NCBI RefSeq assembly: GCF_002843385.1
Contig: NZ_MVDE01000003.1
Span: forward strand, 62,001-126,000
Direction of reading: 5' to 3'
Source of the DNA: Labilibaculum manganireducens
GTDB taxonomy: Bacteria > Bacteroidota > Bacteroidia > Bacteroidales > Marinifilaceae
Length of the DNA: 64,000 nt
The notes beneath the pieces are model-generated. The model made no database searches, was not told where the DNA came from, and saw only the letters and a program-made list of their open reading frames with translations. This document shows, piece by piece, positions 47,864 to 61,907 of the stretch (positions are counted from its first letter, which is position 1; each line of letters begins with the position of its first letter). A program made the position numbers and the translations under genes.

Positions 47864-48217
47864 ATGAGTACAATTAAAAAATTTGAAGAACTGGTGATTT
47901 GGCAAAATGCCCGGAAATTGATTAATGAGATATACAAAGAAATGAATGGGATTAAAGATTTTGGATTCAAAGACCAAATTCAACGAGCTTCAGTTTCTAT
48001 CATGAATAATATAGCCGAAGGTTTTGAAAGATATTCAGACACTGAATTCAGACGTTTTTTGGACATTTCGAAAGCTTCATGCGGTGAGGTTCGAAGTATG
48101 CTTTATTTAGCCGAAGATCTCCATTATCTTGATAATAATACAGCTGAAAATTTACGGAAAGATTGCAGGCTAATATCAGGTAGTATTCAGAATTTAATTA
48201 ACAGCTTAAAATCCTAA
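47864..48217 (+). CDS. Four-helix-bundle protein of the 23S rRNA IVP (S23) family
   Basis: 117 residues, normal for the family. FEELVIWQNARKLINEIYKE, DQIQRASVSIMNNIAEGFER and FLDISKASCGEVRSMLYLAE are the signature helices. The family was first seen encoded in intervening sequences of 23S rRNA genes and includes the Avd accessory proteins of diversity-generating retroelements; it forms pentameric basic bundles that bind nucleic acid. No reverse transcriptase is near. The gene sits between two inverted repeat arrays, which suggests it moves as, or helps, a small mobile unit. Confidence 0.92.
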   Translation: MSTIKKFEELVIWQNARKLINEIYKEMNGIKDFGFKDQIQRASVSIMNNIAEGFERYSDTEFRRFLDISKASCGEVRSMLYLAEDLHYLDNNTAENLRKDCRLISGSIQNLINSLKS

Positions 48218-58858: not shown

Positions 58859-59728
58859 TTAGACTTCCTCCTTTATCCTTGAGATACATTCCTTTAAAGA
58901 ATCTCTCCAGTAAGGAACCTCTATTCCAAAATCAGCTTTAATTTTCGCCTTATTCATCACTGAATAATGAGGACGCTGAGCTGGTGTTGGATAATCTTTT
59001 GTTTCGATTGGCTTCACAAGACAATCCACCATCCCAATCTCCATAATAGCCTTCGAAAAGTCGTACCAGGAAGCCACCCCTTCGTTCGAGAAATGATAGA
59101 TTTTCCCTTTTTGGTCTAATTTTTCTTCTTTAGAAAAAATTTCCAGACAAGCTTGTGCCAAATCTCTCGCATAAGTTGGCGTTCCCACCTGATCGAAAAT
59201 AACGCCCAACTCATCTCGCTCCTTCCCCAAACGTAACATCGTTTTCACAAAATTGTTTCCAAAAGAAGAATACAACCAGGAAGTACGAATTACAATGGAT
59301 TCTGATTCCGAATTAATCACATACTCCTCCCCTTTTCGTTTCGTAGCCCCATATACTCCAATTGGAGAAACCTCATAATCTTCTGTATAAGGAAAATGAG
59401 CAGTTCCATCAAAAACGTAATCAGTAGAAATGTGAATCAACTTCAAATTCTGCTCTTCAGCTACAAACACCAAATTACCAACTGCCGTAGCGTTCACTAA
59501 TTCTGCCGTTTCAAAATCTTCTTCTGCTTTGTCCACAGCAGTGTAAGCAGCACAATTGATGATTGCTTCGATTTTATTTTCGCTTACGAACTGAGATAGT
59601 TTCTCTTTATTACAAATATCCAATTCCGGCAAATCAGAAAACACAAAATCCAAATTTGAATAAGAATCGGCTAGTCCATTTATTTCTGAGCCCAACTGCC
59701 CATTGGCTCCTGTTACTAATATTTTCAT
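58859..59728 (-). CDS. rfbD: dTDP-4-dehydrorhamnose reductase
   Basis: 289 residues from the ATG at 59726-59728 (MKILVTGANGQLGSEI, preceded by AATAAGGAA); a GTG further up would start inside a repeat. The NAD(P) loop, INCAAYTAVDKAE, STDYVFDGTAHFPYTE and YGATKRKGEEYV (Tyr-Lys) are clear. It reduces the 4-keto group in the last step of dTDP-rhamnose synthesis. Confidence 0.95.
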   Translation of the reverse strand: MKILVTGANGQLGSEINGLADSYSNLDFVFSDLPELDICNKEKLSQFVSENKIEAIINCAAYTAVDKAEEDFETAELVNATAVGNLVFVAEEQNLKLIHISTDYVFDGTAHFPYTEDYEVSPIGVYGATKRKGEEYVINSESESIVIRTSWLYSSFGNNFVKTMLRLGKERDELGVIFDQVGTPTYARDLAQACLEIFSKEEKLDQKGKIYHFSNEGVASWYDFSKAIMEIGMVDCLVKPIETKDYPTPAQRPHYSVMNKAKIKADFGIEVPYWRDSLKECISRIKEEV

Positions 59729-59741
59729 TTCCTTATTTTTT

Positions 59742-59847
59742 TCCACAAATTACTCAAATGACACAAATTTAAAAGTTTAACTGGGAGGTTAAGACCTTTA
59801 GATTATCATCATAAATAATTAGTGGTCATTAGTGAAAATTAGTGGTT
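59742..59847. repeat. Pair of phased triple-word repeats between rfbD and rfbC
   Basis: Left, 59742-59770: CCACAAATTACT, CAAATGAC, ACAAATT. Right, 59817-59847, on the minus strand: AACCACTAATTTT, CACTAATGAC, CACTAATT. Both have three 6-base words about 10 bases apart, in inverted orientation, as do the ends of the GxxExxY unit next door, but here with no gene between. Confidence 0.6.
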
Positions 59848-59856
59848 CCTTATAAT

Positions 59857-60405
59857 TTAGAAAGGGTTTTCAGTTTGTGACAATGGCTTCAGCTCCTTAT
59901 CTTTTCCAGACAATTGAACTTCATTAATAGCAATTTGCCAATCCACAGCAATCTCTTCATCATTCCAGACAATGCCGGAATCATGATCGGGAGCATACCA
60001 ATTGTCCACCTTATAGGCAAATGTTGCTTTTTCACTCAATACCACAAAACCATGTGCAAACCCTCGTGGCACAAACAATTGCCGTTTATTATCTCCGCTT
60101 AAGTTTACCGCCACATATTTTTTATAGGTAGTAGAACCTTTTCGAAGATCCACTGCTATATCCAAAACTTCACCTTCAATACAACGCACCAGTTTGGCTT
60201 GATTGAAAGGTGGTTTTTGAAAATGAAGACCTCGAAGCACTCCTCTTGAAGACTTCGATTCATTGTCCTGAACAAAATCGACTTTCCCAATGTTTTCTTC
60301 GAATTCCTTCTGATTGAAAGATTCAAAAAAGTAGCCCCTGTCATCCCCAAATACTTTTGGTTCAATGATGACTACTTCGGGTATTTCTGTTTTTATAAAT
60401 TGCAT
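59857..60405 (-). CDS. rfbC: dTDP-4-dehydrorhamnose 3,5-epimerase
   Basis: 182 residues, cupin fold. DRGYFFESFNQKEF, SSRGVLRGLHFQKPPFNQAK (catalytic His in LHFQ), VDLRKGSTTY, FVPRGFAHGFVVLSE and the C-terminal YAPDHDSGIVWND are family hallmarks. It converts the 4-keto-6-deoxyglucose intermediate to the L-rhamno form. It is separated from rfbA by the inserted GxxExxY unit. Confidence 0.96.
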   Translation of the reverse strand: MQFIKTEIPEVVIIEPKVFGDDRGYFFESFNQKEFEENIGKVDFVQDNESKSSRGVLRGLHFQKPPFNQAKLVRCIEGEVLDIAVDLRKGSTTYKKYVAVNLSGDNKRQLFVPRGFAHGFVVLSEKATFAYKVDNWYAPDHDSGIVWNDEEIAVDWQIAINEVQLSGKDKELKPLSQTENPF

Positions 60406-60420
60406 TAATTATATTTTATT

Positions 60421-60886
60421 AACCACAGATGACACAGATTTTCACAGATTAAATTACAAAACGTTTATATTCTAGGCTTGTTGCTCCAAAATTGATCAGA
60501 TAACCGACTTGCATTCCTGTCGCCTTTAAATAATTCATCAACTGTGCGATATGAACATCTTCAATTGCTTTAACTGATTTTAACTCTAAAATGATCTTAT
60601 CATGACATATAAAATCGGCATAGTACTTCTTATCCAAGATAATTCCCTTATAATTGATATCAATTTGAGCTTCTCGTTCATAAGAAATACATTTTCGCGA
60701 AAACTCATACTCTAAAGCCTCTTGATATACTGCTTCTAGAAAACCACAACCTAATTCAGAATGTACTGCCATACAACAACCTAAAATAGCATAGCATTCA
60801 TCTTTAAATAAGAAATTATCATAGCTCATCGCGATCATCTTTTATTTAAAATTATTAATCTGTGCAAATCTGTGTCATCTGTGGTT
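60421..60886. mobile_element. GxxExxY gene unit bounded by 32-bp inverted repeats
   Basis: Left end 60421-60452 begins AACCACAGATGACACAGATT and right end 60855-60886 is its inverted copy; the 32-base arms differ at one base. Each arm is three ACAGAT words at 9-10-base spacing. The right arm touches the rfbA stop codon and the left arm lies 15 bases from the rfbC start. The gene inside uses a stop codon that lies within the left arm. No transposase is encoded. Confidence 0.85.
60449..60838 (-). CDS. GxxExxY family protein (PD-(D/E)XK nuclease-like)
   Basis: 129 residues. The name-giving motif is GCGFLEAVYQEALEYEF; YEREAQIDINYKG, YYADFICHDKIILELKSVKA (the D...E-x-K nuclease-like core) and IAQLMNYLKATGMQVGYLIN with final FGATSLEYKRFVI follow exactly the TIGR04256 pattern. 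The catalytic-type acidic and lysine residues are kept. Function is unknown; members occur in rRNA intervening sequences and as scattered single genes. Here it breaks an otherwise standard rfb operon and lies between inverted repeats. Confidence 0.93.
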   Translation of the reverse strand: MIAMSYDNFLFKDECYAILGCCMAVHSELGCGFLEAVYQEALEYEFSRKCISYEREAQIDINYKGIILDKKYYADFICHDKIILELKSVKAIEDVHIAQLMNYLKATGMQVGYLINFGATSLEYKRFVI

Positions 60887-61768
60887 TTAATTTTTTTCTC
60901 CAATAAGATTTAACAAATACTGACCATATCCATTCTTCTTCAACGGCTCCGCCAATTTTTTCACCTGTTCGGCATTAATGTAGCCTTTAGCATAGGCAAT
61001 TTCCTCTAGACAAGCCACTTTCAATCCCTGACGGGTTTCAATGGTCTCAATAAAACTTCCGGCAGCCAATAAAGATTCATGTGTACCCGTATCCAACCAA
61101 GCATAACCTCGGCCCATCAATTCGACTTTCAAGCGTCCTTGCGCCAAATATTCCTGATTTACCGTAGTAATTTCCAATTCTCCACGATGTGATGGTTTCA
61201 CATTCTTTGCTACTTGAACCACATCGTTCGAATAGAAATACAAACCTACCACGGCATAATTGGATGCTGGATTCTCAGGTTTTTCCTCAATCGAAGTTAC
61301 AGTTCCATTTTCATCAAAAGCAGCTACACCATAACGTTCCGGATCATTCACATAGTACCCAAAAACGGTAGCTTTTCCTTCCTCTTCCACATTTTTACGG
61401 GCATTTTTCAACATGCCGGTAAGGTTGTGTCCGTAGAAAATATTGTCACCCAAAACCAAACAAACCGAATCATCACCAATAAATTCATCCCCAATAATAA
61501 AAGCCTGAGCCAATCCGTCAGGACTTGGCTGCTCTTTATAAGATAATTTCAGTCCCAATTCTTCCCCTGTTCCCAATAATTTCTCAAAATTAGGAAGATC
61601 CTCAGGAGTCGAGATGATTAATATTTCCTGAATCCCTGCCAACATCAATACTGACAATGGATAATAAATCATGGGTTTATCGTAAACCGGTAATAGCTGC
61701 TTCGAAACTCCTTTGGTAATGGGATACAAACGGGTTCCGCTGCCTCCTGCTAAGATTATTCCTTTCAT
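60887..61768 (-). CDS. rfbA: Glucose-1-phosphate thymidylyltransferase
   Basis: 293 residues from the ATG at 61766-61768, [20 protein letters not shown]; a TTG nine bases earlier is less likely. [51 protein letters not shown] and [13 protein letters not shown] are standard. It makes dTDP-glucose, the first step towards dTDP-L-rhamnose. Its gene is first in the rfbA-C-D-B order on the minus strand. Confidence 0.96.
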
Positions 61769-61907
61769 ATTTTTCAAGGTAATTACCTGTATTTAGGTAA
61801 ATTAAAAACTCATTTATAAACACATCCAATTTCTTTAACCAATCGATATACAATCAACCAATTATAAACAACATATTCGTTAAAGAAATATGCAATAATT
61901 AACGTAA

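Follow-up and report, generated by a model that had tools for sequence, protein, structure and literature searches.

We think it somewhat probable that the GxxExxY gene in the rfb operon of the window (the whole 64,000-nt stretch of DNA that was analysed) belongs to a minimal homing-like selfish element, in which the gene of a sequence-reading nuclease is bracketed by inverted arrays of the nuclease's recognition word. The unit is read on the − strand. Its arms (60421-60452 and 60855-60886) are 32 nt each, 97% complementary and separated by 402 nt, and it was confirmed that they match at 31 of 32 positions, as the earlier note had claimed, and that they enclose the GxxExxY gene alone, with no transposase ORF between them. 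The gene (60449-60838, − strand) encodes 129 amino acids with a predicted exonuclease-like PD-(D/E)XK fold; it matches TIGR04256 (E 1.3e-44; 151.3 bits against a cut-off of 35) and PF13366 (PDDEXK_3; E 3.6e-42; 143.8 bits against a cut-off of 22), and its stop codon (60449-60451) lies inside the rfbC-side arm. As read from the sequence, this arm, which is the 3′ arm in the unit's sense, carries CACAGAT three times on the + strand (60424-60430, 60433-60439 and 60443-60449), and the rfbA-side or 5′ arm carries it three times on the − strand (60858-60864, 60868-60874 and 60877-60883), which makes six copies in total, spaced 9 and 10 nt within each arm.

The neighbors are rfbA (rmlA; 60887-61777, − strand) upstream and rfbC (rmlC; 59857-60405, − strand) downstream. 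The statement that the unit fits the gap between them exactly is true on one side only: the 5′ arm ends at 60886 and abuts the rfbA stop codon, the rfbA ORF ending at 60887, but 15 nt (60406-60420) separate the other arm from the rfbC start. The arm 20-mer AACCACAGATGACACAGATT occurs twice in the window at up to 3 mismatches (shuffles, mean 0.01), and the 5.32-Mb genome contains two perfect matches to it, which are both window arms, and one 3-mismatch match elsewhere. There are five GxxExxY genes in this genome, each with different words.

Arms are a feature of the family across phyla. The 260 nt on the upstream side of each GxxExxY gene were compared with the 260 nt on its downstream side, reverse-complemented. 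Controls were fake genes slid to other positions of the same loci, and their 95th and 99th percentiles served as thresholds. In the first set (111 units, 80 from many phyla and 31 from the window's genus), the 105 units with enough flank had a median inverted-repeat score of 18.0, versus 9.8 in the slid controls, and 87 of the 105 lay above the 95th percentile and 62 above the 99th. The corresponding counts were 46 and 36 of 49 further units, and 61 and 54 of 62 units from a second genus. The question of whether arms recur at other GxxExxY genes is thus answered in the affirmative, and the two outcomes that the earlier note had set against its own proposal, GxxExxY genes without arms, and arms mostly geneless together with the lack of an empty site, did not occur. 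The gene is present in 152 of 296 sampled Bacteroidota genomes and in 8 of 72,556 plasmid records. The largest number of matches among 12 genomes searched was 17, in Tangfeifania diversioriginum (G019, the genome of L083). The names GxxExxY, PF13366 and PDDEXK_3 are scarcely mentioned in the literature that was searched, and when six arm strings were searched for, the shortest, GTCTGAACC, was the only one found among the matches listed.

Rather than as plain terminal repeats, the arms are more plausibly seen as arrays of a word that goes with the protein of the unit. The word is about 7 nt long and particular to each unit: it is CACAGAT in the window unit, and CACAAAT, CACGAAT, CACGGAT, CGCAAAT, CACAGAG, CGCAAAG and more in others, and one large protein clade has words in the style of GTCTGAACC...TGATT. 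If pairing of the arms were all that mattered, facing words should match; recognition by a protein would require agreement among all words of a unit. Three sets of 46, 34 and 25 units were scored for identity at the variable word positions. Neighboring words of the same arm agreed at 0.80-0.83; across the two arms, the values were 0.84-0.88 where the words face each other and 0.79-0.83 where they do not; words of different units agreed at 0.44-0.55. Mismatches between the arms affect 27-35% of columns in the linkers versus 8-10% in the words.

These figures bear on a different explanation, which we regard as unlikely, namely that the unit is an RNA element resembling the intervening sequences (IVS) of 23S rRNA, so that the arms pair in the mRNA, RNase III excises the unit, the protein binds RNA and ordinary recombination accounts for the spread. 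Pairing alone leaves unexplained that agreement between non-facing words is almost as good as that between facing words, and that the linkers do not preserve pairing. On the other hand, the RNA of the unit does fold with its arms paired (z −5.98; 0 of 100 shuffles as good), and both arms change together at one address: in the second genus, 210 double changes that keep pairing were counted, versus 36.9 expected if the arms changed independently (2,337 columns in 14 address groups), although the count leans upward because the unit pairs overlap and the arms were picked by best match. The anatomy is also very similar. As described in PMC4990558, the IVS of Coxiella 23S rRNA is 444 nt long, has a 28-bp terminal inverted repeat, is excised by RNase III, and contains an S23p (four-helix) ORF in its loop with heptamer repeats (GACAGAT) ahead of the ORF. 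GxxExxY units share with it their size, a terminal inverted repeat of about 30 bp with one mismatch, an ORF in sense orientation within the loop, heptamer repeats in the arm and the occurrence of geneless versions. They are unlike it in lying outside rRNA (an Rfam search gave an rRNA match in 0 of 80 GxxExxY loci, which argues against the RNA explanation), in encoding an unrelated protein and in having words that agree beyond pairing.

The word also follows the protein. Word themes track protein clades across phyla in a tree of 111 proteins, and protein similarity is correlated with arm similarity both over all pairs (Spearman 0.427; null sd 0.046) and over pairs from different phyla (Spearman 0.276; null sd 0.063, maximum 0.20 in 300 permutations). 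Of the 49 new units, 5 were set aside for lack of a clear word class; for the other 44, the class of the nearest protein in the first set was correct 37 times. Guessing the commonest class gave 2, and shuffling gave a mean of 7.3 and a maximum of 28 in 2,000. Leave-one-out prediction was correct in 77 of 83 units.

At the level of single residues, the analysis covered 95 of 222 units, those in which three or more words are readable. Of all protein columns, the one that tracks word position 5 (A or G) most closely corresponds to C15 of the window protein, a residue with which the first long helix begins in the predicted structure (model residues 12-29). The excess information for this column is 0.53, that of the next column 0.24 and the median 0.018. 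T15 was found with G at word position 5 38 times and with A never. Among 28 disjoint close pairs that differ at this position, T15 is present only in the G unit in 19 and only in the A unit in 0, and residue 15 is unchanged in 9 (sign test, p 3.8e-6); column 15 changes in 77% of position-5 pairs versus 26% of control pairs. A tree-based test on well-supported branches left four usable pairs, which point in the same direction where they differ but are too few for significance. The window clade itself (C15, with CACAGAT or CACAAAT) departs from the rule, positions 2 and 4 have no standout residue column in the same 95 units, and position 7 follows deep protein clades at many columns rather than a single residue; these points count against homing. 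The broader candidate, that the whole face of the recognition helix (residues 23 and 26) tracks the word, was not upheld, and only the correspondence of residue 15 with position 5 stands. From the covariation of word and protein we infer that the protein may bind the word, and perhaps cut there, with the word as its target.

A structure model of the protein, made from 58 sequences, has a pLDDT of 93.3. Its best Foldseek match in the PDB is SSO0001 (4ic1; E 5e-5), which we take to be Cas4, and the next matches are lambda-type exonucleases (LHK-Exo, lambda exonuclease and RecE). In the 58 sequences D75 is invariant, E85, K87, Q99 and Y103 are conserved in at least 90%, and E35 is also among the invariant or nearly invariant residues. 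The modeled fold, together with the conserved D and E-x-K, makes the protein a likely PD-(D/E)XK nuclease; the sequence match to T7 endonuclease I was weak and non-significant (E 0.35). PD-(D/E)XK is one of the six families of homing endonucleases that are listed in PMC6083498. Nevertheless, the predicted fold seems nearer to lambda exonuclease and Cas4 than to known homing enzymes, which weighs against homing. A fold that appears to be of the DNA-exonuclease type likewise speaks against the RNA element.

The gene is under strong purifying selection (dN/dS 0.07-0.17 in 11 pairs), and the protein has weak profile similarity to Cas4. Both observations would suit a gene that is useful to the host, for example in repair or defence, which travels as a small cassette and whose word arrays are self-regulating operators. 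We hold this to be quite unlikely, and operators would not be expected on both sides of a gene in mirror orientation, or as geneless pairs at the same address.

Units occupy the gaps between stop and start codons of operon genes. In the first set, clear neighbors on both sides were available for 87 of the 111 units, and in 76 of these both neighbors run in the unit's direction (only the upstream neighbor in 6, only the downstream one in 4, neither in 1); in 48 units of the new set, the numbers are 33 for both, 6 and 6 for one only and 3 for neither. This sense orientation favors the RNA element, and it would be explained under homing as well, since a gene that is read with the host operon has no evident need for its own promoter. 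The left arm starts no more than 12 nt from the upstream stop codon in 45 of 78 units. The neighbors are varied operon genes, mostly unrelated metabolic ones, which argues against usefulness to the host, but type I restriction genes are prominent among them, which argues for it (Methylase_S, 9 of 69 upstream neighbors and 9 of 68 downstream; HSDR_N, 7 of 68). Type I restriction operons appear to house seven units from unrelated genomes (L026, L045, L053, L064, L066, L083 and L084), often with an hsdM-like gene on one side and an hsdS-like gene on the other, as named from the sequence. The three matches from the Rfam search of the 80 loci were one to an RNase P RNA and two to TPP riboswitches. 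The GxxExxY gene of one Anaerolinea genome directly follows the RNase P RNA gene (L032, 1899-2335 and 2501-2854). Another shared address is seen in two different Bacteroidota genomes (L025 and L077), whose thiamine loci include a TPP riboswitch and carry a unit ahead of what is apparently one and the same gene.

That the gene is a passenger in a MITE-like element whose movement depends on a transposase from another locus strikes us as very improbable. The units do resemble MITEs and insertion sequences in their inverted ends, their compactness and the occurrence of geneless versions, and a few have flush direct repeats that resemble target duplications. Such repeats reach a score of at least 12 in only 4 of 89 units (L045, 46 nt; L038, 21 nt; L068, 27 nt, overlapping a further arm copy; L026, 15 nt), with lower-scoring ones in L053 (10 nt) and L066 (a degenerate 25 nt), and they were found in 2 of 46 units of the new set, both explained by neighboring arm copies. 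Fixed-stagger transposition was therefore rejected as the main mode: the duplications vary in length from about 10 to 46 nt, and insertion at new places looks rare, to judge from the sequences. In L026 and L053, the flush direct repeat leaves both overlapping genes complete.

A second candidate, that the arms are a dispersed genome repeat, was also rejected. There were 18 strict arm matches in nine genomes (reversed-pattern control, 0); the three in the window genome are all within the rfb operon, and three others (in G002, G006 and G007) are one sequence, CCACATATGCACCAATATTCACGTAT, that is not arm-like in appearance. The units thus differ from MITEs and insertion sequences in having no transposase, in their variable-length duplications and in not being dispersed in the genome; neither a target duplication of fixed length nor several similar copies per genome were found for the unit. 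It also argues against a MITE-like element that near-identical units are never at different addresses and that the ends go with the protein they enclose. REP/BIME elements with RAYT transposases are similar in being intergenic inverted short repeats with a partner protein, but there the protein fold is different, and GxxExxY units have word arrays around the gene and few copies per genome. Site D of the window genome (L234, G000:C16) has a short palindrome, GACGTAGCATGCTACGTC, that recalls REP-type elements, and in three relatives the same gap bears a GxxExxY gene.

Units were compared address by address in nine genomes of the window's genus, one genome per species (G000 is the window genome), with 31 of 40 GxxExxY matches used in the dS comparison. 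In the rfbA-rfbC gap, G000 and G006 have a near-identical unit, and G004 and G001 have different members of the family. The junction without a unit that the earlier note had asked for was found in part: G002 has no gene there, but its gap holds a geneless inverted pair of another theme. The rfbC-rfbD gap contains a unit in G002 and G004 and none in G001, and in G000 it contains the geneless remnant of a second GxxExxY unit (59725-59856, − strand) that keeps the last codons, the 3′ arm and the spacer. Positions 59725-59781 of this remnant align with the gene 3′ end, 3′ arm and spacer of the G002 unit, and the words in its other arm (59818-59845; CCACTAATTTTCACTAATGACCACTAAT) are of the same style. 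The pattern recurs at six further addresses, where some genomes of the genus have the unit and others lack the gene. Address J has a GxxExxY gene in G000 and G003, a four-helix gene in G001 and G007 (and, by position, in G006), and in G002 and G008 a geneless pair in a style found around some DUF559 genes.

The window unit differs between G000 and G006 by a dS of 0.045, versus 0.84 for the upstream and 1.04 for the downstream flank. Further same-address pairs gave unit values of 0.069 (flanks 0.48/0.32, upstream/downstream), 0.14 (1.69/1.01), 0.088 (1.60/0.76), 0.095 (0.72/0.34) and 0.029 (0.35/0.16). Altogether, the unit is 3.6-18.7 times less diverged than the less diverged flank in 7 of 38 same-address pairs, at six addresses, and at least 2.5 times more diverged in 9 of the 38, the remainder being between these or identical throughout; the lowest dS among 53 different-address pairs is 1.31. 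This shows that in the window's genus the history of a unit is decoupled from that of its address. The shared tract is short: in the G000/G006 comparison, identity rises from about 80-90% to 92-100% some 80 nt before the arm, inside rfbA, and drops back about 50 nt past the other arm. In five of six young-unit pairs, every 300-nt window beyond the unit is less similar than the unit itself. The exception is L112/L108, in which 16 of 71 outside windows, and the downstream flank, are as similar as the unit, and this pair counts against homing. Sharing between species that is limited to the unit and to one address fits homing, which predicts it. Ordinary recombination, as invoked for the RNA element, leaves such short unit-centered tracts at several addresses unexplained, and for a host-useful cassette, sharing of about 600 nt limited to one address would require targeted exchange.

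The steps by which homing would produce this pattern can be outlined as follows. The putative nuclease would bind the word through its first helix and cut an allele that lacks the gene, for example a geneless arm pair, in which the words are close together and could form a hairpin or cruciform. The unit would then be copied in by repair that uses the gene-bearing allele as its template, and the gene, by separating the two arrays, would protect the occupied allele. G000 has a geneless pair of the same theme in its rfbC-rfbD gap, and four genomes have one at site G; the pairs at other addresses have other themes. The L096/L103 pair most suggests that a geneless pair may be the landing place: its shared tract comprises the gene and right arm without the left arm, and in the recipient-like genome the left arm is similar to the geneless pair that G001 has at this address. 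It tells against homing that the arm pairs which gene-free genomes bear at several addresses differ in theme and would not be obvious targets of the protein. Compared with free-standing homing endonuclease genes, the units are alike in consisting of a single nuclease gene between host genes, in their presence/absence polymorphism, in being younger than the flanks at an address and in their short shared flanks. They are unlike them in having inverted arrays of a word that follows the protein, in their operon-gap position and in the geneless arm pairs of relatives.

The second genus, which is more diverged, behaves differently. In 25 genomes drawn evenly, 19 of them with the gene, no young unit was found among 86 same-address pairs, the lowest unit dS being 0.62; units are about as diverged as their flanks, which are mostly saturated, and the lowest dS among 48 different-address pairs (at least 60% identity) is 0.86. 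Because no young unit was found, these units look vertically inherited and long-lived, which counts against homing in that a purely selfish homing gene should show boom and bust; they are old and conserved, and have kept their arms. Spread independent of the flanks was thus seen in the window's genus and not, with flanks mostly saturated, in the second. The long retention at the same addresses favors a gene useful to the host. This leaves three readings: homing may come in episodes, the window's genus may be an exception, or the gene may serve the host as well. The original proposal of a single-gene homing or mobile unit is accordingly upheld in part, in that arms go with the gene across phyla and sharing at one address is limited to the unit, but new-site insertion looks rare (the 4 of 89 flush repeats) and unit-limited sharing was absent from the second genus.

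GxxExxY genes are not the only ones in this type of setting. The window contains a four-helix bundle gene (TIGR02436, S23 type; 47897-48211, + strand); another lies just past the window end (contig C3, 126312-126635), and the window genome has six matches to the family. Among 30 four-helix genes from the genomes of the genus (L115-L144), 22 lie between inverted arms above the control 95th percentile, in the styles AGTCGAA, TTAGTAATTAGTA, AATTACGAATTACG and AAAGGTAAAAGG, and 26 have both neighbors in the sense direction; the 30 loci are not independent, because several are orthologues. That these genes, too, stand between inverted arms is a point for the RNA element. Young units also occur among the four-helix genes (7 of 35 same-address pairs, three addresses), and the 13 different-address pairs all have a dS of at least 2.05. 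For DUF559 genes, arms were detected in 5 of 10 tested and sense orientation in 4 of 9, and with so few arms and no sense bias their place beside the others is weak. Arms resembling CCTCACCCTAACCCCTCTCCT and CCCCTAAATCCCCTAAAGGGG stand beside some DUF559 genes (L246-L251 and L256); they also occur geneless at sites B and J (L207-L209, L217 and L222), where relatives have GxxExxY or four-helix units.

As a tentative generalization, which we hold to be possible rather than probable, there may be a class of selfish elements of operon gaps, in which a small protein reads a word and carries inverted arrays of it on both sides, different families compete for addresses and leave geneless arrays behind, and spread occurs by targeted gene conversion. 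Its members would be the GxxExxY nuclease, probably the S23-type four-helix protein and, more weakly, DUF559. If the class is real, its protein-word pairs evolve rapidly and constitute a natural recognition code, part of which is seen in the correspondence of residue 15 with word position 5, and the rRNA intervening sequences are a branch that settled in rRNA; the S23 parallel would make the origin of those sequences testable. If the arms are the protein's own targets, a widespread family with no assigned role gains a function, a substrate for assays and a partial recognition code, and, at 129 amino acids, a reader of 7-nt words would be a nuclease module of very small size that looks programmable.
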